Virus record (IMG/VR): IMGVR_UViG_3300025112_000059
Coordinates: 1-38,713 of that record
Source of the DNA: a virus
DNA length: 38,713 bases
Reading direction: 5' to 3' (one strand)
Shown here: piece after piece, positions 152-38,713 of the stretch
Layout: every line of letters begins with the position of its first letter
How positions within the stretch are numbered: the first letter of the stretch is position 1
Translations under genes and position numbers: made by a program
The notes under the pieces: model-generated
Database searches by the model: none
The model's input: only the letters and a program-made list of their open reading frames with translations
Told to the model about the DNA's origin: nothing

Positions 152-460
152 TTAATTTTCAACGTGAGTTGCTGGTATAAATTCGTCAATAATATCTCCT
201 TCTTTTTTTCGTGCTTGTTCTGTCGCTATAAAGATAGCGTGTTTTCTGTTGTTGGCTCTTACTACTTCTTTATGAGCCGAGTTTCCTGTACCTAAATTTT
301 CTTTTCTATAAAATTTTACAGTATAAATTTTATCACCAAACACCTTTTGACCAATTACTTTATTAGCCGTTCCTAAAATTCTATCTCGCGTTTCTCTTGC
401 TTCTTGCTCTGTTTTAGCTATTGTTTTATCTAATGCTTGTTCTAATAGATTTCTAGCCAT
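152..460 (-). CDS. Conserved-looking small phage protein, unknown function
   Basis: A soluble protein of 102 residues beginning MARNLLEQALDKTIAKTEQE, with a charged helical N-terminal half (about 1-35) and a probable beta-rich middle (KVFGDKIYTVKFYRKE). I do not recognise a family. The start is supported by an AAGGAG Shine-Dalgarno 9 nt upstream and a strong sigma70 promoter at 515-543. It is the best expressed-looking gene of the left end and is transcribed alone. Its 5' and 3' untranslated regions are complementary (479-506 with 118-145), which is unusual for a phage gene. Confidence 0.8.
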   Translation of the reverse strand: MARNLLEQALDKTIAKTEQEARETRDRILGTANKVIGQKVFGDKIYTVKFYRKENLGTGNSAHKEVVRANNRKHAIFIATEQARKKEGDIIDEFIPATHVEN

Positions 461-478
461 AAAAATTTTCTCCTTGCC

Positions 479-506
479 TCACCACTCGCTATAAGTTATC
501 AAGGTA
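479..506. repeat. Right arm of 28-nt inverted repeat, in the 5' leader of the 152-460 gene
   Basis: This arm is the leader just downstream of the promoter at 515-543 and ends about 3 nt before the AAGGAG ribosome binding site (471-476). If it pairs with the 3' arm (118-145), the duplex would abut the ribosome binding site. Confidence 0.75.
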
Positions 507-514
507 CTGATTAC

Positions 515-543
515 AGTATATACGAACGCTCGTAATAAGTCAA
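515..543 (-). promoter_or_regulatory. Sigma70 promoter TTGACT-17-TATACT with an operator-like spacer
   Basis: On the minus strand the -35 TTGACT is at 543-538 and the -10 TATACT at 520-515, with exactly 17 nt between them. The spacer holds ACGAGCGTTCGT (533-522), whose outer four bases on each side are inverted repeats, a possible operator. The start of transcription would be near 508 and the leader about 47 nt long. A 13-bp motif shared with two other promoters sits 5 nt upstream (549-561). Confidence 0.8.
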
Positions 544-548
544 ATAAC

Positions 549-561
549 AACTGGGGATAAC
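549..561. repeat. Promoter-associated 13-bp motif AACTGGGGATAAC, copy 1
   Basis: This copy is identical, in inverted orientation, to 3528-3540. A degenerate third copy is at 31806-31818. All three lie just upstream of minus-strand promoters. The core TTATCCCCA differs by one base from a consensus DnaA box (TTATCCACA). A binding site for a phage or host regulator is inference. Confidence 0.5.
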
Positions 562-570
562 TATTTCTCC

Positions 571-624
571 TTATTTAATTATTATGACATAGACATTTTT
601 GCTATCATCTTCTGTCTGGTATTC
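571..624 (-). other. In-frame coding-like extension after the TGA stop of the 625-891 gene
   Basis: After the TGA at 627-625 the same frame stays open for 17 sense codons (EYQTEDDSKNVYVIIIK) to a TAA at 573-571. The composition looks like protein and there is nothing else in this stretch. It could be a readthrough extension (TGA followed by G) or the tail of a gene with a recent nonsense mutation. Confidence 0.4.
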
Positions 625-891
625 TCAAACTTCTAAATTCCGTAATCTTTTTTTAGCATCTATGAGCAAACCATTTGCATTTTCAGCTTTTGGGTTCTTG
701 TCAAGGAATTTTTGCAAGCCTTTTGTAATTCCGTTCAATGCTCCCTCGCTAGTTCCATATTCTTCTAAAGGTTCTTTTGTGGCTAAAGGAAATTCTTTTA
801 CTGGCGTTGGTATGCGATCAGGATACTGCTTATAATATTCTGGCATATCCAAAACCTTTGCTATGTTACTGAACATTGAAAAGTATTTCAT
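625..891 (-). CDS. Small hypothetical protein, possibly stop-interrupted
   Basis: A protein of 88 residues beginning MKYFSMFSNIAKVLDMPEYY, with a proline-rich linker (DRIPTPVKEFPL) and a helical C-terminal half. No family is recognised. The gene has no clear Shine-Dalgarno. It stops at TGA, but the same frame continues for 17 protein-like codons to 571. It lies downstream of 926-1270 in the left operon. The true product may be about 106 residues if the stop is read through. Confidence 0.65.
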   Translation of the reverse strand: MKYFSMFSNIAKVLDMPEYYKQYPDRIPTPVKEFPLATKEPLEEYGTSEGALNGITKGLQKFLDKNPKAENANGLLIDAKKRLRNLEV

Positions 892-925
892 ATTTATTTT
901 TCATATTCATCCATTAAATTTTCTA

Positions 926-1270
926 TTATTCCAGTTTATCCTTAACAGCGTCAATAAATCTTTCAACTTGTTGTTTATAAAAATCATCAAAAGTACCGAC
1001 TTTGCCTCTTTGCTCCCACATTATATACAAAACGGATCTTAATCTTTGGCTAGGAGTTTTGTCGTTTTTTTCAGTAGGCACAAAATCTGGTATATCAATT
1101 TGACTCTTATCAAAAGCTCGTTCAGCAAATAAAAAGTATCCAGATTTTTGTCTAAGTTCAAATAGCTGGCTGGCTTGGTCTGGAGTTATTTCCTGTGTAC
1201 CAACAGTTAGTTTGATAGTTTTATCTTGACGTGTTTCTATTTTTTCTATTTGTGATGCTGTTTGAAACAT
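926..1270 (-). CDS. Phage protein with TPSQRLRSVLY motif, unknown function
   Basis: A protein of 114 residues. Residues about 25-50 (TVGTQEITPDQASQLFELRQ) and the segment KTPSQRLRSVLYIMWEQ resemble a small family I have seen in many tailed phages, where it lies among recombination and replication genes. No function is known to me. The C-terminus (FDDFYKQQVERFIDAVKDKLE) is probably helical. The ATG at 1270 is preceded only by A-rich sequence. An overlapping short frame (1221-1325) may be an upstream gene or a decayed start. Confidence 0.7.
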   Translation of the reverse strand: MFQTASQIEKIETRQDKTIKLTVGTQEITPDQASQLFELRQKSGYFLFAERAFDKSQIDIPDFVPTEKNDKTPSQRLRSVLYIMWEQRGKVGTFDDFYKQQVERFIDAVKDKLE

Positions 1271-1325
1271 ATTTTTTAATTTCTAGCTTGCCTGTTTGTG
1301 AGATTGTTCCGTAAAATGTAGGCAT
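1221..1325 (-). CDS. Possible 34-residue ORF overlapping the start of the 926-1270 gene
   Basis: ATG at 1325 opens MPTFYGTISQTGKLEIKK and then a less convincing tail, overlapping the next gene by 50 nt. The beginning looks like the N-terminus of a phage family starting MPTFxGxIxxGKLxL, usually found with recombination functions. It may be the remnant of such a gene truncated here. There is no ribosome binding site. Confidence 0.3.
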   Translation of the reverse strand: MPTFYGTISQTGKLEIKKYVSNSITNRKNRNTSR

Positions 1326-1375
1326 AATAATTTATTCTATAGAGGGAACACATATATATTCCCCCTAACAACAAA

Positions 1376-1489
1376 CTACGCGCTATCTTCTGGTGTTGAG
1401 TCGTCAGCAGGTGTGTCGCCACTTTCTGTGCTTTCGCCACCCTCTTCGGGTTGGTGTACTTGTGTGCCTTCTTCTTCTGCAATAGTCAT
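1376..1489 (-). CDS. Small acidic, disordered protein (37 residues)
   Basis: The product starts MTIAEEEGTQVHQPEEGG and is made almost entirely of Glu, Asp, Gly, Ser, Thr and Pro. It has a good AAGGAG ribosome binding site 8 nt before the ATG, which supports translation. It resembles the 27-residue acidic product at 3640-3723. Acidic disordered phage peptides can act as DNA mimics or inhibitors, but that is speculation here. Confidence 0.6.
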   Translation of the reverse strand: MTIAEEEGTQVHQPEEGGESTESGDTPADDSTPEDSA

Positions 1490-1523
1490 AAGACATTCTC
1501 CTTGTTAATAATAATTTTTCTAA

Positions 1524-1772
1524 CTAATTATTAATCTGTTCTCTAGTTAATATAATATTTATCCCAAACTCTTTTAGCTTTAACATGGCTTTGCTACCTT
1601 GAAATGATTTGAACAATCCCATTACTTCGCTTGCTTGGCCCTTATTCAGCGATTCTAACTCCACCCATAGCTTATCAATATTCGGTATAAATTTGCGATT
1701 CATTGCCTTGTTGCAGAAACGAAGTATGTGGGATTTTTGGCTGAGAGTTATGTTGTCATTTTTCCAAGACAT
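1524..1772 (-). CDS. Hypothetical phage protein (82 residues)
   Basis: The start MSWKNDNITL at 1772 is chosen because it lies 1 nt after the TAG stop of the upstream gene (1776-1774); a longer frame exists but would run back into that gene. The product is mostly helical and basic in the first half (LSQKSHILRFCNKAMNRKF). No family is recognised. It is translationally close-coupled to the 1774-2649 gene, which suggests a shared role in DNA metabolism. Confidence 0.7.
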   Translation of the reverse strand: MSWKNDNITLSQKSHILRFCNKAMNRKFIPNIDKLWVELESLNKGQASEVMGLFKSFQGSKAMLKLKEFGINIILTREQINN

Positions 1773-1773
1773 A

Positions 1774-2649
1774 CTATTTTGAATCCTCCCCTTTTGCTCG
1801 ACTAATAGCATTGTCTAATTTCTCATCCTCTGTTTCTACCTTATCAGTGGCTTCATTAACCTTTTCCATTTCCTGTGCTACCTCTTTTTTGGTCTGTGAG
1901 GCATCAGATTTGGGCTTTTCAGCTTGTTTTGGCTGTGATGTGACTGGTTGTTCATCTTTGGCTTTGTCGCCCTCTGACTGGCATTTTCGGCATAATTCAA
2001 AGCCATACTTCTTTTTGCTAAAACTAGCTTCTGCCGGAGTAATCTGTATTTTTTCTTTGAGTTGGCTATAGTGGCGTTGACAGTAATGATTTTTGACTGG
2101 CTCTTGTGGGTCCGCATGATAGGTTGGCTCATTGGATGGCTTTTGATATCCATTTGTATCTTCTGGGGACATATCCTGCGTAAAAATATCTGAAAGTCCG
2201 GTAGTTCGAATTACTGCATCAACATACGCGCGTTTTTGAGCCATCTTAATTGTTTTGTTTGGATCGCCATTATTTCCACCTAAAGTATCAGCGCCTCTGC
2301 CTTGGCCAACAATAAAGCCTCCTCTCTTTAAATCGCAAACATAAGCTACCATTCCTTTTACTTCTGATAACATTTCTACTGTATCGTTGTCTTTGTCAAA
2401 AGTAGCAACAAGTTGATAGATACTAGCCAATTTTTCAGCACCACCTTTTGATAAAGATTTCTTTCCTAAAATAATATGGAAATCTTGTTTTTCTTTTAAC
2501 TTAGGAAGTACTTGGTTAATAAAATACTCTCGCTTTGCAAGTAAGTCATCTACCCCTTGTTTAAATGTAGCCAGAGTAGTTTCTTGATTTACTGGCTCAA
2601 TCTCTTGTTTTGTTTCGACAACCTCTGGCTCATTTGATTTTTTAGGCAT
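1774..2649 (-). CDS. Possible phage DNA recombination/annealing-type protein with C-terminal zinc finger
   Basis: A protein of 291 residues. The core, about residues 25-170, holds LSKGGAEKLASIYQL and a KMAQKRAYVDAVIRTTG segment followed by LSDIFTQD. These features are common in a widespread phage family found in recombination/replication clusters, sometimes discussed beside Rad52/ERF-like annealing proteins. Its biochemical function is not certain to me. A zinc-finger-like part follows (CQRH about 190-193, then CRKC about 220), then a long charged coiled or disordered tail. It is flanked by HNH and small genes in the left, early-type operon. Confidence 0.5.
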   Translation of the reverse strand: MPKKSNEPEVVETKQEIEPVNQETTLATFKQGVDDLLAKREYFINQVLPKLKEKQDFHIILGKKSLSKGGAEKLASIYQLVATFDKDNDTVEMLSEVKGMVAYVCDLKRGGFIVGQGRGADTLGGNNGDPNKTIKMAQKRAYVDAVIRTTGLSDIFTQDMSPEDTNGYQKPSNEPTYHADPQEPVKNHYCQRHYSQLKEKIQITPAEASFSKKKYGFELCRKCQSEGDKAKDEQPVTSQPKQAEKPKSDASQTKKEVAQEMEKVNEATDKVETEDEKLDNAISRAKGEDSK

Positions 2650-2653
2650 ATGA

Positions 2654-2818
2654 TTATTTAATTAATTTATTGCTTAATCTCTGTAATTTTTTTTGTTTGC
2701 GTTTTTCTAAAGTTTTCATTTCCTCTGCTCTATCGCCCCAAATAATCCAATCCATTATTTTTTGAGCGTTGAGTCCACCTTGTAAATTAGGTTGTCGTAC
2801 GTATATAGGAGTTATCAT
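2654..2818 (-). CDS. Small basic helical protein (54 residues)
   Basis: The product begins MITPIYVRQPNLQGG and ends in a lysine-rich helix (TLEKRKQKKLQRLSNKLIK). The start codon comes 2 nt after the stop of the HNH gene, with an AAAGGAA ribosome binding site inside that gene's last codons. The stop lies 4 nt before the ATG of the next gene. The tight packing supports a real gene. No family is recognised. Confidence 0.65.
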   Translation of the reverse strand: MITPIYVRQPNLQGGLNAQKIMDWIIWGDRAEEMKTLEKRKQKKLQRLSNKLIK

Positions 2819-2820
2819 AG

Positions 2821-3309
2821 TTATTCCTTTCTCATTTTTTTAATAGATATATCCAAATTAAGATGACATTTGTGGCAAACGGTAATCATTCTATCTGTGT
2901 GTTCTGAATCCCATTTACAAGCACCCTTGTGTCCGTGTCCATCTCTATCCTCGTCTAAATGATGAACATCTAATCGTCTTTGCTTTTTTAGCTTCCAATC
3001 AAATCCACAAAGCTGACATAAGAAATTATCTCTCATTCGTACAATCTCGCGAATCTTATTTAATCGACCCTCTCCGTAATCGTGTATCAGGGTTAAGCGA
3101 GTATCAACTTTTCTGAATTTCTTTTTAAGAAATGCTCGATATTTCTTGTTAGTCAACTTTCTGAATTTTATAATGTGTCTTGGTGTATAATAATCTATAT
3201 TATGAATAATTTGCCATGCACGATTTTTAGAAATATTGAATTTATCTCCTATAGCTTGATATGTTAAACCCTGTTTCCTTAATTCTTTAATTTGTTCGTT
3301 TCTGGTCAT
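2821..3309 (-). CDS. HNH endonuclease with N-terminal helix-turn-helix
   Basis: A protein of 162 residues. Residues 1-35 form a sigma-region-4-like HTH (ELRKQGLTYQAIGDKFNISKNR). An HNH domain spans about 90-160: CQLCGF for zinc, LDVHHLDEDR with the catalytic histidines, then VCHKCHLNLD for the second zinc knuckle. Such proteins cleave or nick DNA and are common both as selfish genes and as packaging-associated nucleases. Here it sits in an early-type operon just after a putative regulator, overlapping it by 23 nt, so a stand-alone selfish or regulatory role is likely. Confidence 0.8.
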   Translation of the reverse strand: MTRNEQIKELRKQGLTYQAIGDKFNISKNRAWQIIHNIDYYTPRHIIKFRKLTNKKYRAFLKKKFRKVDTRLTLIHDYGEGRLNKIREIVRMRDNFLCQLCGFDWKLKKQRRLDVHHLDEDRDGHGHKGACKWDSEHTDRMITVCHKCHLNLDISIKKMRKE

Positions 3310-3484
3310 TTCTCAACAATTTAATATAATACGATGCCACCGAATGATTGCATCCGACCCTTTGAACTATCTCGTTTGCTTCATATCCAGCACGGATAGC
3401 TCTAATTATTTTAATCGTGTTTCGGGCAATACGCTCAACACGCTGGGCTTCTTCCTCGTTTATCTTAATTTTTGCGTTATTCAT
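3287..3484 (-). CDS. Small helix-turn-helix protein, candidate autorepressor
   Basis: The product has 65 residues: a charged N-terminal helix (NEEEAQRVERIARNTIKIIR), then an HTH-like unit (YEANEIVQRVGCNHSVASYY). The start ATG at 3484 is chosen over the in-frame GTG at 3505 because the GTG lies upstream of the apparent -10 box. The ATG would then be almost leaderless. A perfect inverted repeat overlaps its own promoter, so autoregulation is plausible. It is the first gene of the leftmost operon and may be its regulator. Confidence 0.7.
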   Translation of the reverse strand: MNNAKIKINEEEAQRVERIARNTIKIIRAIRAGYEANEIVQRVGCNHSVASYYIKLLRNDQKRTN

Positions 3485-3493
3485 AATAACACT

Positions 3494-3526
3494 AGCATAA
3501 CACACCTGTTATTTAATACAAGTAAA
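3494..3526 (-). promoter_or_regulatory. Promoter with overlapping palindromic operator
   Basis: On the minus strand the -35-like TTTACT is at 3526-3521. A -10 TATGCT at 3499-3494 comes after an upstream TGT, giving a 21-nt gap; TGTTAT at 18 nt spacing is an alternative -10. A perfect inverted repeat ATAACA-CACC-TGTTAT (3497-3512) covers the -10 region. It sits just upstream of a small HTH gene, so this is a likely operator. Confidence 0.55.
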
Positions 3527-3527
3527 G

Positions 3528-3540
3528 GTTATCCCCAGTT
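3528..3540. repeat. Promoter-associated 13-bp motif, copy 2
   Basis: GTTATCCCCAGTT, the exact reverse complement of 549-561, sits 1 nt upstream of the -35-like box of the HTH-gene promoter. Confidence 0.5.
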
Positions 3541-3639
3541 TTTTGCCAAACAAAAAAGGCAGAAATTATTATTTTCCACCCTTAATGTATGGCTTCTTAG
3601 TCTTGTTACGTTTTTCAATAACAGACACCGAAGCTTTTG

Positions 3640-3723
3640 CTATGTAGTAGGAGCAGGTTCTGGAGTAGCTTCCTCACCACCTGCATCTGCATCACCTTCC
3701 GGTGTCTTTGGTTCATCTTCCAT
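3640..3723 (-). CDS. Small acidic disordered protein (27 residues)
   Basis: The product starts MEDEPKTPEGDADAGG and is rich in Glu, Asp, Pro and Ala, like the 37-residue product at 1376-1489. There is no Shine-Dalgarno. After its TAG, a different frame codes SVIEKRNKTKKPYIKGGK from a GTG near 3619, so a frameshifted or second small basic product is possible. Function is unknown. Confidence 0.4.
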   Translation of the reverse strand: MEDEPKTPEGDADAGGEEATPEPAPTT

Positions 3724-3871
3724 ATGGTTTGTATTACTTATAAAGTACAAACGTGGCTTAATACTAACTGCAAGTATCAAGAGTATGGTCACTTACCACA
3801 GGAATATACTCCGCGCATACAAGCATACGCTCTTGTAATCCCCCTATAGATTGCAGTTTACTTTTTCCACT

Positions 3872-3899
3872 TTGCTATTTGTTAAATTTATGCTATACT
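3872..3899 (+). promoter_or_regulatory. Plus-strand promoter TTGCTA-16-TATACT with extended -10
   Basis: The -35 TTGCTA is at 3872-3877 and the -10 TATACT at 3894-3899, preceded by TGC (extended -10). Transcription would start near 3906 and run into the small structured leader and terminator, then the HNH-type gene at 3984. Confidence 0.65.
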
Positions 3900-3904
3900 A
3901 TCCT

Positions 3905-3977
3905 TGATTGGTTCAAGCAATCATTATATACTTTATATGCCGTTAGTAGGTGCTTGAACCGCCGAAAGCGGTTTTTT
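3905..3977 (+). ncRNA. Structured leader or small RNA ending in an intrinsic terminator
   Basis: A first hairpin pairs TGATTG (3905-3910) with CAATCA (3918-3923) and exposes the 7-nt loop GTTCAAG (3911-3917). The terminator pairs AACCGC (3957-3962) with GCGGTT (3968-3973), loop CGAAA, followed by a T-run to 3977. GGTTCAAGC (3910-3918) is the exact complement of GCTTGAACC (3952-3960), which contains most of the terminator's 5' arm. Loop-to-arm pairing and terminator formation are mutually exclusive. This is the layout of an attenuator, or of a pseudoknotted small RNA of about 70 nt. Confidence 0.7.
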
Positions 3978-3983
3978 AATTAT

Positions 3984-4625
3984 ATGCCTAAAAAATGTCT
4001 TTGTGGATGTGGAGGAATTATCATTTGGCAGAAACATCATAAATGGCGCGATATTAAATATATTCGTGGCCATGCCCCTAATAAAAATAGATTACAGTTG
4101 GTTAGCAAAAAATTCGGTAGACTAACAGTCATTAAGTTTGCTGAATTTAGACGTGGAAAAAACAATATGAAGCGATCTTATTGGAAATGTAAGTGTGCTT
4201 GTGGTAATTATACAGTAGTTCGTGGGCTAAATCTTAAGATAAAAAATGGGGTAAAAAGTTGTGGTTGCTTACAAAAAGAAGTGATGTCCAAAATTGGTAA
4301 ACGTGCGTACAAGCATGGAATGTCTAATACTAAATTTTTTAGAATCTGGGTAGGTATGCAAACTAGATGTTTTGATTCTAAAGAAAAAGCATATCGTTGG
4401 TATGGAGCTAGAGGAATTACTGTTTGTAAGCGATGGCTCAGATTCGAAAACTTTCGAGATGATATGTATAAGCTATATTTAAAACATAAGAAAAATAATG
4501 ATTATACTTCTATAGAACGAATTAACAGTAATGGAAACTATAAGCCTAGTAATTGTAAATGGGCTACTCGTGAAGAACAAAGAGCTAATCAACGTCCTCG
4601 TCAACGAACACGCGATTTTAGATAA
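3984..4625 (+). CDS. HNH/AP2-like phage selfish-gene protein (SCGCL and NCKWAT family)
   Basis: A protein of 213 residues from MPKKCLCGCG; the longer upstream frame would include the terminator, so it is rejected. Domains in order: a short zinc knuckle (CLCGCGG), a zinc-ribbon-like part (WKCKCACGN ... KSCGCL, about 65-100), then RWYGARGITVCKRW and SIERINSNGNY with NCKWATREEQ near the end. This is a familiar phage family that behaves like free-standing homing endonucleases. It is on the opposite strand to its neighbours, has its own promoter and leader, and overlaps the 3' end of the convergent M23 gene by 25 nt, all consistent with insertion. Confidence 0.65.
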   Translation: MPKKCLCGCGGIIIWQKHHKWRDIKYIRGHAPNKNRLQLVSKKFGRLTVIKFAEFRRGKNNMKRSYWKCKCACGNYTVVRGLNLKIKNGVKSCGCLQKEVMSKIGKRAYKHGMSNTKFFRIWVGMQTRCFDSKEKAYRWYGARGITVCKRWLRFENFRDDMYKLYLKHKKNNDYTSIERINSNGNYKPSNCKWATREEQRANQRPRQRTRDFR

Positions 4626-5085: not shown

Positions 5086-5520
5086 ATGGGTAGACCTAAG
5101 ATTTGGTATTATCATAAGTGTGAATATTGTAAGAAGAAAATTACAACAGATGGAAGCCACCGTAGAAGACATAAACATGTTTTTTGTAATACCAGTTGTT
5201 CTATGAAATGGCGAGCAAAATATCTTCCTGAATCACTTAAAGGCAACACTACCGTTAGAACAGGAGAGCAAGCCGCTCATTGGAAAGGTGGATATATCAC
5301 GTCACAAGGATATAAAGGTTTCACAAAAAACAAAATTAATTATCTTGAACATAGGCATGTCATGCAAAAACACTTAGGTAGAAAATTAAAACGATCTGAG
5401 CAAATACATCATATAAATGGAATTAAAACTGACAATAGAATTGAAAATCTTATATTATTTGCCAATGCTAGAGAACATACACTCTATCATTACAAATTAA
5501 AAAAAGAAAAAAACTTATAA
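5086..5520 (+). CDS. HNH endonuclease with zinc-ribbon N-terminus (selfish gene)
   Basis: A protein of 144 residues. It has an N-terminal zinc ribbon ([10 protein letters not shown] ... [10 protein letters not shown], about 13-45), then an HNH_3-like nuclease core: [12 protein letters not shown], the [17 protein letters not shown] segment with the catalytic histidines, and NAREHTLYH. It is on the plus strand, between minus-strand genes, and stops 2 nt from the end of the convergent polyvalent gene. This placement, with its own promoter, is typical of a free-standing homing endonuclease. Confidence 0.85.
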
Positions 5521-5522
5521 TT

Positions 5523-8500
5523 TTAAGGTCGTTGAAAACGTACTGCTTCTCCAGCTTCCGGTCTAGTGAACCTTGTTTTTGCTTCTGCACTAGGGCGCTT
5601 GAATCTAGTGGTTGGCTCTTTTTTTATTTTCTTTTTTTCTCGCTCTTTGCTTTCAACGCCTTTGCCGAACCACCAATAATATAGGTTTCCTAAGACTGGA
5701 ATTGACTTAATTGATTTCAGATTATTTATTTTGATGCTCTCTTCCCAATCCTTAAAAATCTTTATAAGGTCTTTTGAGATATTGTCTACAAACTGCGTAG
5801 GTGGAGTAAGTTGCTCTAGTATAGCCGAGCCAATTCCATTACGGCTGACTTGGTTTACAGAGTATCGACTGAATCCTATTAGTTTGGCAATGTTATCTAT
5901 AAGACGATCTTTAAGAGATGTTTTTCTACCAAGCACTAAATCTTTCAATTCATCTGCTGTAGCGTTCATCAGAACCAAAGCCATTGATAATAATACCATA
6001 TTTCTCATTCCTTGTACTTTGTTGGTTCTCATTGTTCTAAATACTTCATTACGATAAACATCAAACATTTTTAAGGTCCAAGTTTTTAATTGGTATAAGA
6101 TACGCAAATTTCCACCTGTCAAATATCTTTGTGGAACTTCTGATTTTGCTACTGGCTGGAAGTCCAGAAGCTTGTAAAACGCTAAAAACTTAGCATTTTC
6201 AGTCATATTATCATTTTTTAGATCTTCGATAGTTTGCTTGGCATCATCTCCAAAAATATCTTTCATCTCTTTTTCAAATTCTGGTGTTGGCTTTTTAGCT
6301 AATTTTTGATAGCGGGCTACTATTGGATTGATAAGGGTTTCTTTACCCATAGTATCTATTTTGGTAAGGCCCACTACTTTGAATACAGTATCAACTAAAT
6401 TAGCAGTCAAAGAAGCATCTTCCATTTCTATAGCTATTCTTTCTATGCCAATATCTTCTTTAGTAATTTTTGATTTTCCAACTCCAGCGCGGATTAAAGC
6501 ATTGCCTGTTTCAAATGCTCCTGCATTACCTACTAAGACGTTATATAAAGGAAAAGCCAAGTCGCCAATCTGCGTCAAAGCGTTTATAGGGCTTCCCATG
6601 ACATCTAAATATGCCAGATTCTTATACAAACTCACGGCTCCATGAGTTCCTTTCTCTCCAAAGAAAGCATTTAAAATTTCCCTAACCTCTAATTCCTGTT
6701 TGGGTGTAACCTTGCCTTCCGCCAAAAGCTTGACCATAAACGCACCAATACTATCGTCAAGATTATTAAACTGATCCACTTTTTTATCTACTATCTGCGA
6801 CTTGCCAAAAAACTTACGCGCCTCAATAGCATTGTCTACTGATTCTATATACCTCAAAGTAGCATTAGAGGTGGTGAAATAAAACTTATTCATTTCTGGC
6901 GTTATAAAATCAATCACTCGATCTTTCATATTACTGACTGCTGACAAAGTAATCTGACCACCGGAATATCCACGTATCATGTTATTTATAAGATAAGCTT
7001 TTTCATCAGTAGTCAAGGCACGGCCCAAGTCCATTTCTTTGCGTTTAACAGCTTCGTCAATAATACTCTTAGTATTCTCGTCTGCCTCGCTAAAAAATTC
7101 AACCAATCCTTTAGTATCTTTAACCATGCGAGGGAAGTAATTTTTTAAATACCCAATATCAAAACCAACTTCATTAGCCCGAGCGTAAATATCATCAAAC
7201 AATGCTTTAGTGGTTTTCATTTCCTGTTCAAACCCATATTGCTTGGCTAGTGCTTCTTGCTTGGCTATATCACGATTCTTGGCCGCAAAGTCAAAAGTAG
7301 CCCTATCGTCTTTAGTCATTGTGTTATATTTCTCTAAAAATGGAACAACAATCTTTTTGTCCTTAATTACTCTTTGATTCGAGTTAAAAATAAAGCGCCT
7401 TAAAGCAATCCGCAAAGACGGGTCTATATCCGCTAATCTGCTTGATATTGTTCCTAACGTCTTGTCAACTTCATCACCTGCTTTTTGTAAGGTTTCTTTT
7501 ATTTGAAGTTTAGGAGTTTTTTTCTGTACCTCTATATTAGCTTGATACACATCATCTTTAATTACTGGCGGTTCGGATTTCTTAGATACGATTCCTAGCT
7601 TCTCGGTTGTTTCAGCAGACGGTCTGAATCCTCGCTCAAACTTAAATTTTAAGCGCTCTTTAAGTTTACTAACAAAATTACCTAATTCAACTATATTCAT
7701 CTGACTGATTGCCTTAGTGATTCCTAGTTCTTTCTTAACGTCATTGATAGTAGTTTGATTAAATTCGCCTAACTTCTTTACAAAAGCGATTGCACTTCTT
7801 TGTTTGCCTTTTGGGGCTTTTAAAGATTTATCAATATCTCGTTTTAGGGCTTCTAAAAATTTCTGTTCACGCTTGAATTGTGCTATGCCTTGTTTTGCTC
7901 CACGTTTTTCTACGCGTAATTTCTGACGCAACAAAACATCTTCTTTTTTGGTAACTTTTTTCGTTGGTGGTCTAACCTGTTCCTCAATCTGCTTTTTAGT
8001 AATTCGTTTAGGTTTTGCTGGCAGTGATTCAAGTTTTGGTGGCACAGCTTCTTTTACTCCTTTAGCTTGGTTGAAGAAGTCGGTTAGGGATTTGCGGGTG
8101 ATGGGTTTCCCCTCGGCGGCAAGGTTTAGTGGCAATCCCGCCTCAACAACACCCGCAACGCCTTGCTCTTTGATTGTCTTGCCCCCACCTTTTCTAAATA
8201 CTAATTCACTAAAATCCAAATTATCAATACTTATTAGATCATTTGCGTCAACTTCAAAACGATTTAATGATGGACCGCCAAAATCTTTTGGATTTGTACT
8301 ACGAGGATCTTTAAGGTATAATTCTGCAATCCCTTTATCAGCAGTCAAGAATTTTCCGTCAATTAGCTTCTCATTATTCTGTCCTGCTCTCCATACTACC
8401 ACTTTGTTTCCTAAAAACACATTATCAGCAAATCTTTTACCATGTAATGTAGTCAATGTGCCTGAATCAAGTGTATCAGCTTGAAAAAATGGACCAACCT

Positions 8501-11500
8501 TTCCAACTATATCTAATTCAACTTGTCTTGGTTTTATAGTCTTTTCCACAAACTCCTCTGCACTCTTAAACTTCCGGGCTTCGCGAGCTAATGGTCTTAA
8601 TTCTGGCGGTATGGGCTTGGCTATTTCCGCAGTTTTAACACCTGTAAGACCAGAATAATCTGCAATAAGTTTGCCATTCTCCATGCGAATATCTGGTTTT
8701 ACTCCGTGCTGTAAGACGCTATGCACCTTAGCTTCTCCTGTTGTAACAATATTAATGAAGTCACGAATCTGATTCTTATTCTCACCGGTAAACATTCTCT
8801 TCATAAATGCCAATACTTCCTCAAAGAATGAGCGTATTTTGGATCCTGTTGTTCGAACATTTTCAAAACTCTGTTCTTGAAGATAAATCTCCAAATCCTC
8901 CATAATCATTTCCTCGATTGCTTGGTCAGACTGGTTAGGAAATATCTTGCGAGCCTCCTCAATCATACCCTCACGCGTAATGCCTTTATCTGTAAATAAA
9001 TCAATGCCGTGCATATGCCGGAATATGAGATGACCCATTTCGTGCTGACCTGTAAATTCAGGAACGCCCTCTTTTTCAATAACAATAGTATTAGCTAAAG
9101 TAGCGCCAAATGCTCCGCCCTCTGCTGTTTTTATAACATCAACTGCTTGCCTGTCAACGTTAGAGAGTTTAAGGCGTCTAGTAATTTCATCAATAGCATT
9201 AAGAGCATCTTGCCCTACCACACGCTCTCTATCTAGACGCTCTGGCCTTTCTGTAAGTTGTCCGGGCTTTAGAAGTGTTGGTTTTTTAACTTCTCCTTTA
9301 GCTTGGTTGAAAATATCTGTTAATTGGGATTTGGTTTTAAGTTGCGAATTATCAAATACAACAGTAAATTCACCACCACCATCTATTGCTCCATCAAATC
9401 CACGCCTTTTTATATCATTGACAATCTCTGGATTGGCATCAAGAAATCCTATCTCTATTTTTTCTCCATCTTCACCTTTTGCGAATTTTCCATTTTTAAA
9501 CTTATAAAATCCACCTGTTTTTTCAAAGTCATATGGATTTCTTAAATCAACACGATATTCCTCTATATTTTTACCAAATTCACTAGCAAATTTTTTACTT
9601 GTGGATGAAAAAATTAAATCAGTTTCTATATCTGATGGATTCTCTATTTTATTTTCAGTACCACGAAACACCTTTGGTTGTGCCTCCACAAACTCCTCTG
9701 CACTCTTAAACTTCCTTGCTTCAACTGCTAATGGCTCTAATTCGGTTGGAATGGCTTTTACTGCTTGGGTTGCTTTAGCTTGGTTGAATATGTCTGTGAG
9801 TTGGGATTTTAATTCTTTGTCAAAAACTTCAACAACTTTTCCATTTGCAACAACAGCCAAATCATCCCCTTTTACCGCATCATGATAAACAATAATACTT
9901 TTATCTACTAAATTTGGATGTTTTTTAATAAATACCTCATTGTATTCTCTGCCAAACTGTTCTATCTTTTCTAGCCCAAAAGCACCCTCTCGTACACCCT
10001 CATCAAATGCCTCTTGTCCATTTCTCTTTATAAATAATTTCTCTACTTCAATATCTAATAAAGATTTGCTATTCTCCACAAACTCCTCTGCACTCTTAAA
10101 CTTCCTTGCTTCTTTAGCTAGGGGTTCTAGTTCTGGAGAGATTGTTGGTTCAATTCTTCCTTTTGCAATTTCTTCTTCTGTTGGAACAAATTGGTCTAAA
10201 TCTTTTCTTGGAATTTTAGCAAAACCCTCTTTGCTTCTTAACGCCTCTCTAGTTGGTTCACCAGTAACTATATCAGCACCCAGACTAACACCTCCGCCAA
10301 GTATGCCTCCAAAAAATGCTGATTCAGGAACTCCTGCAAGCAATTCGCGATTCTCATCATAAGTTTTAGCAACTGAATTCTGTACAATTTCCTGTAGAGA
10401 TTCTGTGCCAGATTCTAAGCCAGCTTGTTGGGTTACACGCCTTGTTATTTCACGGATAATATTTCGTTTGACTGTTTTACCAGCAGGAGAGCGAGAAAGC
10501 AATTTAGTTATAGGAAGTGCTTCTAACATACCATTTGCAACTCCAACAATGGCCGCAACCTTTTCAGCTTTTTGGTCATCTACTCCAAATTCCTTTGCGT
10601 CTTGAAAAGCAAAGCCAGCCTCTAAAGTAGCGGTACCGGCAAACGCTGTTCCACCAATAACTAAAGTAGGCGCACCAACTGCGGCCGCTGGTAAGCCCAC
10701 GCCTATACCAAATAATAAGGTAGGCAAAGTTTCGCCAATTCCTTGCACTATCCATTTTGGATCGCGCATCTTTTCAACAAACTTGCGATTATCTTCTACT
10801 TGAATTCCAACACTAGCTAATTCTTTATCATTTTTAGCTAAAGTCGCAAGTTTTTCACTTAATTGTTCTGCTCCTATTTTCTTGGCCCCAACACTTACAA
10901 TTGTTTCTAATGCTGATCCTAATCGTAAAAATCCACGATTAAAGCTCTCACCAAATATCTTACTAAGAGATTTTTCTCGTTCTGGCCCTTTCACGCCCAA
11001 TTTTGGCGGTGTAGGAGCCTCTGAAACCTTTAATGGAGGTAGTTCTGGTCCTGACAATTCCTCAAAATCAAACACATTATTTCCAATTCTTCTTTGCAAC
11101 TGTTCCCTATTGGGAGTTTCCGCAGGTAAGGCAATGTCAAAATTCTGTGTATCCGGAGTATCAAAACGCACATTTTTTCTGTCGTTCACTCTGAATACAC
11201 CTCTACCATGTGGAGTTTCTACATCTTCTAACTGTTTTATTTTAATAAGAGTGCCTTGCGGTACACTGCGCACACCTGTGGCTACATCGCCAAACTGTAC
11301 TGGAGTTCCAAAAGCGCCTATACCCTCTGGATTATCTGGTCTTGTTTGAAAAGGGTCTTTAGGATCAAAAAATGTAGCATTGAACTTGCTAGGCTGTTTG
11401 GTAGTTACCTTTAGACTTGGTTGTGGAGGTAGAGGTCTTACTTTTACTGATGGCTGTATTCTAGGCCCTGCTACGCTGATAGGATTAAAAGACGAAGTTG

Positions 11501-11558
11501 GCGCTTCGTCTTTTCTAACCTTTACTAGTGGTTGTCTTAGAATATCGGGTATAGGCAT
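5523..11558 (-). CDS. Giant polyvalent internal virion protein (2011 residues) with exchangeable cassettes
   Basis: In order: an N-terminal linker with three QPxxKV motifs (9-14, 35-40, 46-51); a double-psi-barrel/3D-like domain (about 57-146); hydrophobic stretches (about 275-315); cassette 1 (477-596); cassette 2 (606-754, ART-like, VFRGT to DGAIDGG); a zincin-like HEMGH motif at 839-843; cassette 3 (986-1167, ART-like, VWRAGQ to FLTADKGIAELY); a charged coiled coil; and a long helical C-terminal region of the large-polyvalent-protein type (about 1360-1950). Three TRFxRP-like repeats end it. Each cassette starts with ARKFKSAEEFVE and ends with LTDIFNQAK or a close variant. Polyvalent proteins are thought to be injected with phage DNA and to disarm the host. 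It follows the 592-residue internal protein by 1 nt. Confidence 0.8.
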   Translation of the reverse strand: MPIPDILRQPLVKVRKDEAPTSSFNPISVAGPRIQPSVKVRPLPPQPSLKVTTKQPSKFNATFFDPKDPFQTRPDNPEGIGAFGTPVQFGDVATGVRSVPQGTLIKIKQLEDVETPHGRGVFRVNDRKNVRFDTPDTQNFDIALPAETPNREQLQRRIGNNVFDFEELSGPELPPLKVSEAPTPPKLGVKGPEREKSLSKIFGESFNRGFLRLGSALETIVSVGAKKIGAEQLSEKLATLAKNDKELASVGIQVEDNRKFVEKMRDPKWIVQGIGETLPTLLFGIGVGLPAAAVGAPTLVIGGTAFAGTATLEAGFAFQDAKEFGVDDQKAEKVAAIVGVANGMLEALPITKLLSRSPAGKTVKRNIIREITRRVTQQAGLESGTESLQEIVQNSVAKTYDENRELLAGVPESAFFGGILGGGVSLGADIVTGEPTREALRSKEGFAKIPRKDLDQFVPTEEEIAKGRIEPTISPELEPLAKEARKFKSAEEFVENSKSLLDIEVEKLFIKRNGQEAFDEGVREGAFGLEKIEQFGREYNEVFIKKHPNLVDKSIIVYHDAVKGDDLAVVANGKVVEVFDKELKSQLTDIFNQAKATQAVKAIPTELEPLAVEARKFKSAEEFVEAQPKVFRGTENKIENPSDIETDLIFSSTSKKFASEFGKNIEEYRVDLRNPYDFEKTGGFYKFKNGKFAKGEDGEKIEIGFLDANPEIVNDIKRRGFDGAIDGGGEFTVVFDNSQLKTKSQLTDIFNQAKGEVKKPTLLKPGQLTERPERLDRERVVGQDALNAIDEITRRLKLSNVDRQAVDVIKTAEGGAFGATLANTIVIEKEGVPEFTGQHEMGHLIFRHMHGIDLFTDKGITREGMIEEARKIFPNQSDQAIEEMIMEDLEIYLQEQSFENVRTTGSKIRSFFEEVLAFMKRMFTGENKNQIRDFINIVTTGEAKVHSVLQHGVKPDIRMENGKLIADYSGLTGVKTAEIAKPIPPELRPLAREARKFKSAEEFVEKTIKPRQVELDIVGKVGPFFQADTLDSGTLTTLHGKRFADNVFLGNKVVVWRAGQNNEKLIDGKFLTADKGIAELYLKDPRSTNPKDFGGPSLNRFEVDANDLISIDNLDFSELVFRKGGGKTIKEQGVAGVVEAGLPLNLAAEGKPITRKSLTDFFNQAKGVKEAVPPKLESLPAKPKRITKKQIEEQVRPPTKKVTKKEDVLLRQKLRVEKRGAKQGIAQFKREQKFLEALKRDIDKSLKAPKGKQRSAIAFVKKLGEFNQTTINDVKKELGITKAISQMNIVELGNFVSKLKERLKFKFERGFRPSAETTEKLGIVSKKSEPPVIKDDVYQANIEVQKKTPKLQIKETLQKAGDEVDKTLGTISSRLADIDPSLRIALRRFIFNSNQRVIKDKKIVVPFLEKYNTMTKDDRATFDFAAKNRDIAKQEALAKQYGFEQEMKTTKALFDDIYARANEVGFDIGYLKNYFPRMVKDTKGLVEFFSEADENTKSIIDEAVKRKEMDLGRALTTDEKAYLINNMIRGYSGGQITLSAVSNMKDRVIDFITPEMNKFYFTTSNATLRYIESVDNAIEARKFFGKSQIVDKKVDQFNNLDDSIGAFMVKLLAEGKVTPKQELEVREILNAFFGEKGTHGAVSLYKNLAYLDVMGSPINALTQIGDLAFPLYNVLVGNAGAFETGNALIRAGVGKSKITKEDIGIERIAIEMEDASLTANLVDTVFKVVGLTKIDTMGKETLINPIVARYQKLAKKPTPEFEKEMKDIFGDDAKQTIEDLKNDNMTENAKFLAFYKLLDFQPVAKSEVPQRYLTGGNLRILYQLKTWTLKMFDVYRNEVFRTMRTNKVQGMRNMVLLSMALVLMNATADELKDLVLGRKTSLKDRLIDNIAKLIGFSRYSVNQVSRNGIGSAILEQLTPPTQFVDNISKDLIKIFKDWEESIKINNLKSIKSIPVLGNLYYWWFGKGVESKEREKKKIKKEPTTRFKRPSAEAKTRFTRPEAGEAVRFQRP
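8061..8075. repeat. Cassette 3 downstream border (C-tag DNA)
   Basis: TTTAGCTTGGTTGAA, encoding the FNQAK end-tag, occurs identically at 9297-9311 and 9774-9788. It marks the C-terminal border of each polyvalent cassette. Confidence 0.8.
8546..8575. repeat. Cassette 3 upstream border (N-tag DNA), 30 bp
   Basis: The 30-bp sequence beginning CCACAAACTCCTCTGC and ending AAACTTCC is the same in all three cassettes (8546, 9686, 10076). It encodes KFKSAEEFVE. Exact DNA identity over 30 bp, rather than only protein similarity, suggests recent duplication or gene conversion. Confidence 0.85.
9297..9311. repeat. Cassette 2 downstream border
   Basis: A second identical copy of TTTAGCTTGGTTGAA, ending the ART-like cassette 2. 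Confidence 0.8.
9686..9715. repeat. Cassette 2 upstream border, 30 bp
   Basis: An identical copy of the 30-bp repeat at 8546-8575 and 10076-10105. Confidence 0.85.
9774..9788. repeat. Cassette 1 downstream border
   Basis: A third identical copy of TTTAGCTTGGTTGAA, ending cassette 1. Confidence 0.8.
10076..10105. repeat. Cassette 1 upstream border, 30 bp
   Basis: An identical copy of the 30-bp repeat. Beyond it, the neighbouring codons for ARK and LEPLA are also similar but not identical. Confidence 0.85.
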
Positions 11559-30112: not shown

Positions 30113-30215
30113 GTGTCTAATGATAAATTTTTTGACGCTGAATACAAGGATAAATTTATAAAAAGAATTGTCGAGTAAAATCGCTCGCTATCGAGTCGGT
30201 GGTTATATAGTAAGC

Positions 30216-34924: not shown

Positions 34925-35635
34925 TTATTCTAATAATTCACTAATTGATTCTATTTTTCCAACTCTTTTTGATTTCCCTTTAAGCATAAGTTGTAAAAAC
35001 TCATATACTTGTTCTATCTTATTATTTTTATAACCATACATTTTGTGAAATTTTTTATGACATTTTTTACAAAAAGTTATTCCGTTATCAATATCAAATC
35101 TAAATTCTATATATTCAGAAAAATTATATATATGATGTGCCTCTAAATATCCACCACTTTTATTACATTTTTGACAGATATAATTATCTCTTTTAAAAAT
35201 TTTTCTGTACCATATTTTATATTCAATTGATTTTCTAATCTTATATTTTTTAGAAGTAATACCACCCTTCCACATACCATTATTTTCCCTAGATAAATTT
35301 AATCGTTTTCTGCCTTTCATTATTTTACTCATTTTTTCCTTATGTTCACTAGAATGATACTTACCTTTAAAGCCATAAGTTTTTTTTCTTTTTCCGCTTT
35401 TATAATCTTTTTTTAAAATTTTACTTAATTCTTTTTTATGTTCTTCTGATAATTTTTTACCTTTTTTAGCATCACTAATCTTTTTTTTTGTTTCCTTTGA
35501 ATGAGAAATATTTTTATTCCAAGGGATACAATTTTCTTTAAATTGTGTTTTCTTAGACTTAATCATTCTTTTAAAAATGTGTTCTTTTGTTTGTTTTTTT
35601 CCTTTATTAATTTTGTGTCCTTTTTTAAATGGCAT
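34925..35635 (-). CDS. NUMOD3/HNH homing endonuclease
   Basis: A protein of 236 residues. The first half has repeated NUMOD3-type motifs (SHSKETKKKISDAKKG, LSEEHKKELSKILKK, HSSEHKEKMSKIMKG). The HNH nuclease follows at about 150-195: CQKCNKSGGYLEAHHIY, then CKKCHKKFHKMYG. Codon use is strongly A-rich compared with neighbours. Its start lies 73 nt inside the 35563-36108 gene, in another frame, so it was probably inserted at that gene's 3' end. Free-standing homing endonucleases spread by cutting empty alleles. Confidence 0.85.
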   Translation of the reverse strand: MPFKKGHKINKGKKQTKEHIFKRMIKSKKTQFKENCIPWNKNISHSKETKKKISDAKKGKKLSEEHKKELSKILKKDYKSGKRKKTYGFKGKYHSSEHKEKMSKIMKGRKRLNLSRENNGMWKGGITSKKYKIRKSIEYKIWYRKIFKRDNYICQKCNKSGGYLEAHHIYNFSEYIEFRFDIDNGITFCKKCHKKFHKMYGYKNNKIEQVYEFLQLMLKGKSKRVGKIESISELLE

Positions 35636-37399: not shown

Positions 37400-38167
37400 T
37401 CATTGTTTAGTTAGTAGAAAATTATTTTTAAATGGTTTATAATTTACTTTATGATGCCAGCGATTAAATTTCCAAACAACTTCTACGATATCTGGATGTT
37501 GTTTTTGTAATGATTCTGCAAACTTCATTCTATCATCATTATCTGTATAAACATTATCCGTATTACCACCTTTCATTCTTTGTGTGGTTACTTTCCCAAT
37601 AAGAAAAGCATTAAATAATATAGTACACCAACCATCTTTTAACACTCTAATTGATAAATCGGTATCTTCATTGTATCTTCCCCGCCATCTATGAGATAAA
37701 TCATTTTTTATTAAGATACAGGAATAAATTCTAGTATTTAAATTATATGGTGGAATCTTATCTGTTGCTTTACAAAAATTATAATAATTAAATCCTGCTA
37801 TTGCTACATTTTTATATCTATCAATAAAATCTTCTGCATATCTAAATATTGCTCTTGATGTTACCTTTGGTTTTTTATTTCTATTCAACCTATGAAATCC
37901 CTCTATATTATCATCCAATATCCAATGTCGTTTTGCCTTAATAGATATAGAATGTTCCCATACCCAGTTACGAGCTGGTATAGAACCTTTACCTAAATTT
38001 TTAAAAGGTAATACTAGAATATTTTTTGCTACATTTTTATAATCTTCATATTCCTGTGGTTCAATAACCAAATAAAATTTAACATTCATTTTTTTCAACT
38101 CTCTAGCAGTTAAACAATTTTTAGCTCTACCTTTTGAAATTATATAAATTGGATATTTAGGTTTCAT
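37400..38167 (-). CDS. TET/JBP-associated glycosyltransferase (TAGT) homologue
   Basis: A protein of 255 residues. It has the features of the TAGT family: the start YPIYIISKGRAKNC, VIEPQEYEDY, GSIPARNWVWEHS (61-73), HWILDDNIEGFHRLN (81-95, with the DDN metal/sugar-nucleotide site) and RGRYNEDTDLSIRVLKDGW (161-179). The family is a GT-A-fold group encoded in phages beside TET/JBP oxygenases, thought to glycosylate oxidised bases such as 5-hydroxymethylcytosine. It overlaps the methyltransferase-like gene by ATGA. No TET/JBP gene is visible; it would have to lie beyond the right edge. Confidence 0.85.
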   Translation of the reverse strand: MKPKYPIYIISKGRAKNCLTARELKKMNVKFYLVIEPQEYEDYKNVAKNILVLPFKNLGKGSIPARNWVWEHSISIKAKRHWILDDNIEGFHRLNRNKKPKVTSRAIFRYAEDFIDRYKNVAIAGFNYYNFCKATDKIPPYNLNTRIYSCILIKNDLSHRWRGRYNEDTDLSIRVLKDGWCTILFNAFLIGKVTTQRMKGGNTDNVYTDNDDRMKFAESLQKQHPDIVEVVWKFNRWHHKVNYKPFKNNFLLTKQ

Positions 38168-38634
38168 TTTTTATTATTTCCCCAATGAGAACGAAATGGA
38201 TACCAAGCAGATTTCGTTTTATTAGTTAATTTTTGACCTATAATTTTTGCAAATTCCTGCAAATCTTCTTCATTATCAAACCTAAATATAATCTTTGCAT
38301 AAACTTCTTGTTTCTCTTGTATGAATTCAGGCATACCTCGCCATTCTTTCTTCCAGACTTCTTCGTCATATTCTCCGCCAAATAATGATTTTTGATTTTT
38401 CATAATTCCTTTAGTGATATTCTTCTGCTTTGCATTCTCCACAATATCTTCTTGGTAATGGTCTAAAAGATACTGGTGCGCGTCTGTTACTATTACCTTA
38501 TCTTTAGGAAAAAAGTCTTGGTATATTTTAGCTATATCGGGATTGTTCTCAATGGCAGTTACTTCAACATTTTGCCAAAGTTTTCTATTGCCTCCAATTC
38601 CACAATAGGCATTAAGCACCTTTAACTTAGCCAT
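38164..38634 (-). CDS. Truncated DNA-cytosine methyltransferase-like / MPEF-domain fusion
   Basis: A protein of 156 residues. Residues 1-60 match the N-terminus of phage C5-type DNA methyltransferases: motif I LNAYCGIGGNRKLW (7-20), motif II VTAIENNP, and DAHQYLLDHY. The catalytic PPC motif and all later motifs are missing. Instead, after a linker there is GMPEFIQEKQ (100-109) and a FRFDNEEDLQEFAK ... KTKSAWYP part (to 146), a domain often found in phages behind ParB-like or methylase genes. It looks like an internal deletion that fused two genes. It may retain SAM binding but not catalysis. Confidence 0.7.
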   Translation of the reverse strand: MAKLKVLNAYCGIGGNRKLWQNVEVTAIENNPDIAKIYQDFFPKDKVIVTDAHQYLLDHYQEDIVENAKQKNITKGIMKNQKSLFGGEYDEEVWKKEWRGMPEFIQEKQEVYAKIIFRFDNEEDLQEFAKIIGQKLTNKTKSAWYPFRSHWGNNKK

Positions 38635-38662
38635 TTTTCTTTATTTAGCTTGTAGTATTTTT

Positions 38663-38713
38663 TCATATATATTTTTCTTTTTGCTTTATATTCTTTTGTA
38701 TTTCTATTTTTAA
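38663..38713 (-). CDS. C-terminal end of a gene entering from the right edge
   Basis: The frame is open from the window edge to a TGA at 38665-38663, with a lysine-rich end (QKNIKQKEKYI). This is compatible with the C-terminus of an upstream gene, 28 nt from the methyltransferase-like start. Too short to judge. Confidence 0.3.
   Translation of the reverse strand, partial: LKIEIQKNIKQKEKYI

Follow-up and report, generated by a model that had tools for sequence, protein, structure and literature searches.

The TAGT glycosyltransferase gene described here and a small conserved domain encoded immediately before it form a recurrent two-gene cassette, in which the glycosyltransferase and a docking or targeting partner subunit probably modify phage DNA. 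The window is a linear IMG/VR virus fragment of 38,713 bp that carries phage genes for a terminase large subunit, a portal-like protein, a major head protein, a tail fibre and a DnaD-like helicase loader. The first-pass annotation of this locus paired the TAGT with a methylase. That pairing overlooked the actual partner, a ParB-type tail domain located in the second half of the supposed methylase ORF (Table 1).

The glycosyltransferase assignment itself was borne out. In a profile search of 37400-38167, the 255-residue product matched Pfam PF20691 (TAGT) across the whole profile (1-205 of 205) with E 6.4e-52, scoring 176.9 bits (curated cut-off 27.5), and matched PHROG 842 with E 4.9e-48. All four blocks quoted earlier were located: ISKGR at residues 10-14, PARNWVWEHS at 64-73, HWILDDN at 81-87 and NEDTD at 166-170. 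A GT-A DxD-like metal site (DDN, 85-87) and an ED catalytic pair (167-168) aligned with the T6 and P12024L proteins. The window protein lacks approximately 20 residues of a conserved C-terminal Y-G-M segment present in its relatives. Comparison with the nearest relatives gave dN of 0.17-0.19 and saturated dS, indicating that the TAGT gene has evolved under purifying selection.

The fold was assessed from an AF2 model of a natural partner-TAGT fusion, L055, whose TAGT domain is 64% identical to that of the window. The model showed two beta-alpha-beta modules followed by a GT-A domain whose blocks were mostly at pLDDT >90; the structural check proposed for this gene, made on this fusion, agreed with the family assignment. 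The closest solved folds in the PDB were GT-A glycosyltransferases, at low TM-scores, and included protein, peptide and polysaccharide glycosyltransferases; a non-DNA acceptor is therefore possible. PDB sequence searches with the TAGT, the partner and the ParB form of the partner as queries returned no significant match.

Table 1. Features at the right end of the window, with the basis for each.
Feature	Position	Strand	Basis and remarks
TAGT glycosyltransferase, 255 aa, GT-A	37400..38167	-	PF20691, phrog_842, motif alignment
TAGT-partner domain protein, 79 aa (ORF residues 78-156)	38164..38403	-	internal ATG 38403, ribosome site aaagga; stop overlaps TAGT start (ATGA)
Linker, 15 codons, MTase remnant to partner start	38404..38448	-	sequence
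C5-MTase-like remnant, residues 1-62, through SAM-binding motif	38449..38634	-	phrog_363; in-frame fusion to partner
Candidate recombination tract	38473..38587	-	28 of 33 window-L002 substitutions fall here
HNH endonuclease gene, 3' end, runs off right edge	38622..38713	-	overlaps start of chimeric ORF

The ORF upstream of the TAGT (38164-38634, minus strand, 156 aa) was found to be a chimera of two unrelated parts. It is coupled to the TAGT start by an ATGA overlap at 38164-38167, as had been reported. Residues 1-62 matched the start of small phage C5-methyltransferases (phrog_363, E 3.5e-6), and intact relatives matched PF00145. In the alignment, similarity ended just short of the catalytic FIWSSPPC motif IV, and the PC motif of C5 cytosine DNA methyltransferases is absent. 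The description of this neighbour as C5-methyltransferase-like thus holds for 62 of its 156 residues, while the remainder contains the unrelated conserved TAGT-partner domain. The MTase was also considered as the functional partner of the TAGT and was ruled out because the catalytic motif is missing. Among the related partner-TAGT contigs compared, the MTase part fused to the partner was found in one other contig only, L002. Gene-calling at this partner-TAGT locus gives a false 'methyltransferase'.

Contig L002 overlaps the window with 99.6% identity across 11.3 kb and adds 508 bp past the right edge. When contigs extending beyond this were sought by exact match, L002 alone was recovered. The complete HNH gene, of which the window holds the 3' end, lies at L002 109-600 and encodes 163 aa (PF13392 HNH_3, E 6e-14). 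Beside it, the two sequences differ in a 115-bp divergence island (635-749 in L002) with nearly identical flanks, in which 16 codons changed silently and 6 with an amino-acid change. The concentration of 28 of 33 substitutions within 115 bp, mostly silent, is consistent with recombination that brought in a tract of a related, functional MTase gene, and the HNH nuclease may have had a role in this exchange. Before the HNH gene, L002 contains another MTase-like start (MKILNLYA...), also truncated, and ahead of that a possible tail of a further partner (KKVWKEDIEPKEIEIL; 16 residues, weak). These arrangements suggest that a C5-MTase-like gene beside the cassette was disrupted, an HNH mobile nuclease apparently lying at the breakpoint, and that the initial 62 codons of the MTase-like gene were joined in frame to the partner gene as a leader. 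The remnant itself would take no part in modification.

Other features of the window were also recorded. Four further HNH endonuclease-like genes were present (2821-3309, 3879-4625, 5086-5520 and 34925-35635), a heavy HNH nuclease load for a 39-kb phage fragment. A 2011-aa protein encoded at 5523-11558 gave weak PHROG matches and is of unknown function. L002 carries an 11-bp insertion (9022-9032) relative to window position 30200, which is intergenic and beside the terminase gene. Promoter and terminator scans gave matches no more frequent than chance.

The partner domain is defined by the motif W..(E)W.GMPEF.Q ... Q.(L/I)T.KTKS.W.P. The window copy keeps all invariant residues and lacks the last residues of the C-terminal tail. 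In related contigs the short partner is usually 73-114 residues long and is encoded before the TAGT. The full-length form consists of a ParB_N domain (PF02195) and a W.GMPEF...KTKS.WYP tail; ParB_N is absent from the window partner and from most short partners, and is present in L059, L076 and others. In many phages, DNA modification methylases also begin with the ParB half of the long partner. An AF2 model of the small partner domain alone was mostly irregular, with a pTM of 0.48.

Linkage was taken as the conserved tail domain lying directly before, or fused to, a TAGT, an arrangement seen in the window. When loci were sampled with the window TAGT as query, 76 of 80 had the partner next to, close to or fused with the TAGT, and three of the four loci without it end at a contig edge. 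Together with the window, these 80 loci represent 46 lineages at 95% TAGT identity. A second TAGT query yielded 75 new loci, 74 of which had the partner in one of these positions. The reciprocal search with the ParB form of the partner placed a TAGT <1.6 kb away in 79 of 80 loci, two of them decayed, a test somewhat favoured because the query profile was made from TAGT-linked members; in the remaining locus, L116, the TAGT lies about 1.6 kb from the partner. As the three samples share contigs, their counts are not additive. In the two decayed cassettes (L180 5932-6926 and L181 3059-4053) the ParB partner is intact and the TAGT behind it is truncated to 115 aa. A scan of genome contigs for the partner found eight loci in MAGs.

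Natural fusions of partner and TAGT occur in L053 and L072 as well as in L055, and in the annotated phages 65, avDM6, PTm1, 1.124.O, 1.076.O and Kuja, which are Aeromonas, Vibrio and Tenacibaculum phages. That the partner is almost always linked to a TAGT, and in places fused to it, is consistent with a small partner that binds the TAGT and acts as a putative docking or targeting subunit, and we infer a physical complex of the two. Among variant architectures, two tandem TAGT genes were seen in L080 (3503-5253) and in Vibrio phage Kuja (L107 3557-6269), where both copies are fused to a partner domain, and L067 (7030-10218) encodes a 1062-aa protein with TAGT as its N-terminal part.

One relative ties the partner-TAGT cassette to DNA hypermodification. 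In L078, a 4.1-kb viral fragment, genes for TET, ADDT, a P-loop kinase, the partner and TAGT follow one another (225-3982). Profile matches were obtained for TET (PF12851, E 2e-25) and the amino-acid:DNA transferase (PF18724, E 4e-21), and weakly for the P-loop kinase (PF18751). The L078 TAGT belongs to the same clade as that of the window, at 61% identity. TET-linked TAGTs recovered with P12024L protein queries were without the partner. Together these results suggest that the cassette can enter a hypermodification operon and mostly travels without one.

A route to a hydroxylated base was sought in the window and in cassette carriers. TET/JBP (PF12851) was found neither in the window, itself a fragment, nor in 75 larger cassette contigs or seven annotated phages; the same profile was positive in phage P12024L. 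PF00303, a profile for both hydroxymethylases and thymidylate synthases, had no match in the window fragment or in 47 contigs; it was positive in the control T6 and in five large cassette-carrying phages. PF00145 matched in 5 of the 47 contigs and not in the window, and a profile search for PF20515 oxygenases found none. Most of these contigs are fragments, and each enzyme absence is therefore weak singly and weightier together. The window fragment contains neither TET/JBP nor an intact C5-methyltransferase or other base source, which agrees with the earlier remark that it holds no oxygenase. Because neither the window nor the majority of carriers showed a hydroxyl-making enzyme, DNA is given here only as a predicted acceptor.

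These absences bear on the pathway originally proposed, in which a methylase acts first, TET/JBP oxidises the product and TAGT glycosylates it, with the TET gene lying past the right edge. P12024L does have the order TET, TAGT, DNA methyltransferase, a TET gene lies beside a partner-type TAGT in L078, and the window has a C5-MTase-like start. However, that start lacks catalytic motif IV and bears no relation to the partner domain, the P12024L TAGT shares just 28% identity and comes without a partner, and TET was found in none of the 75 cassette contigs under a positive control. The 508 bp past the edge, where it had been suggested that the oxygenase may lie, contain an HNH gene and fragments, with no oxygenase seen. 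We regard this pathway as improbable for the window phage. The broader designation of a DNA-hypermodification locus fared better: it is still the best reading of the TAGT, with a relative in the TET-ADDT-kinase operon of L078, even though the route proposed for it found no support.

That most carriers show no way of making a hydroxylated base could instead mean that the partner-TAGT pair glycosylates a non-DNA target, such as a phage or host protein, tRNA or a cell-surface carrier, and the nearest solved GT-A folds do use proteins, peptides or polysaccharides. Against this stand membership of the TAGT family, in which the T6 enzyme is known to use glucosylated hmC as substrate according to the TAGT passages of PMC13216743, the ParB half common to the partner and phage DNA methylases, and the cassette copy within the L078 operon. 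On balance a non-DNA target appears unlikely. Slightly less doubtful is that the window holds a cassette in decay that no longer functions, a reading compatible with DNA modification by the family as a whole. Loss of the partner tail and of the TAGT Y-G-M tail suggests that the copy may be decaying, and the foreign MTase leader on the partner gene and the adjoining HNH insertion point the same way. Yet both frames are open with all catalytic and invariant residues kept, and TAGT and partner are identical in the window and L002 while the adjoining MTase remnant varies.

We therefore favour a cassette that modifies phage DNA. The TAGT would be a GT-A enzyme that moves a sugar, its identity a matter of prediction, from a nucleotide-sugar onto phage DNA, and the acceptor hydroxyl might come from the host or from an unrecognised phage enzyme, or the acceptor might be other than a 5-hydroxymethyl-pyrimidine. 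As a tentative extension, partner-type TAGTs may carry out TET- and hydroxymethylase-independent glycosylation of DNA (or nucleic acid), with the ParB-type partner setting the sugar site and an acceptor that is not a 5-hydroxymethyl-pyrimidine from a known phage enzyme. Most carriers searched are without any of the known ways to a hydroxylated base. Should the pair glycosylate DNA, an unfamiliar acceptor or hydroxylating step is implied, together with a widespread candidate anti-restriction modification.

Solitary TAGTs, in genomes without alpha-GT or beta-GT, were reported in 288 of 753 GT-bearing phage genomes and proposed as novel transferases in the TAGT passages of PMC13216743 (2026). The window resembles this class in having no alpha-GT or beta-GT; those passages do not mention a ParB-type partner, and the partner gives the class a specific second component. 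Literature searches, with the computational survey of Iyer et al. 2013 outside their scope, found no ParB-TAGT link. The T6 beta-glucosyl-HMC-alpha-glucosyltransferase (ggt), named as a PF20691 TAGT in the same passages, shares the W-DD and ED blocks with the window protein. It differs in showing no significant pairwise match and no partner domain, and it adjoins a dCMP hydroxymethylase gene, for which the window has no counterpart. The P12024L TAGT and its relatives are likewise PF20691 proteins with GT-A motifs from small dsDNA phages; unlike the window, they have TET directly upstream in a TET-TAGT-MTase operon. Phage ParB-DNA modification methylases share the ParB_N half of the long partner, followed by a methylase rather than by the GMPEF-WYP tail and TAGT. 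The L078 operon shares the partner and the TAGT clade with the window; it is set apart by its TET, amino-acid:DNA transferase and P-loop kinase, as the window showed none of the three.
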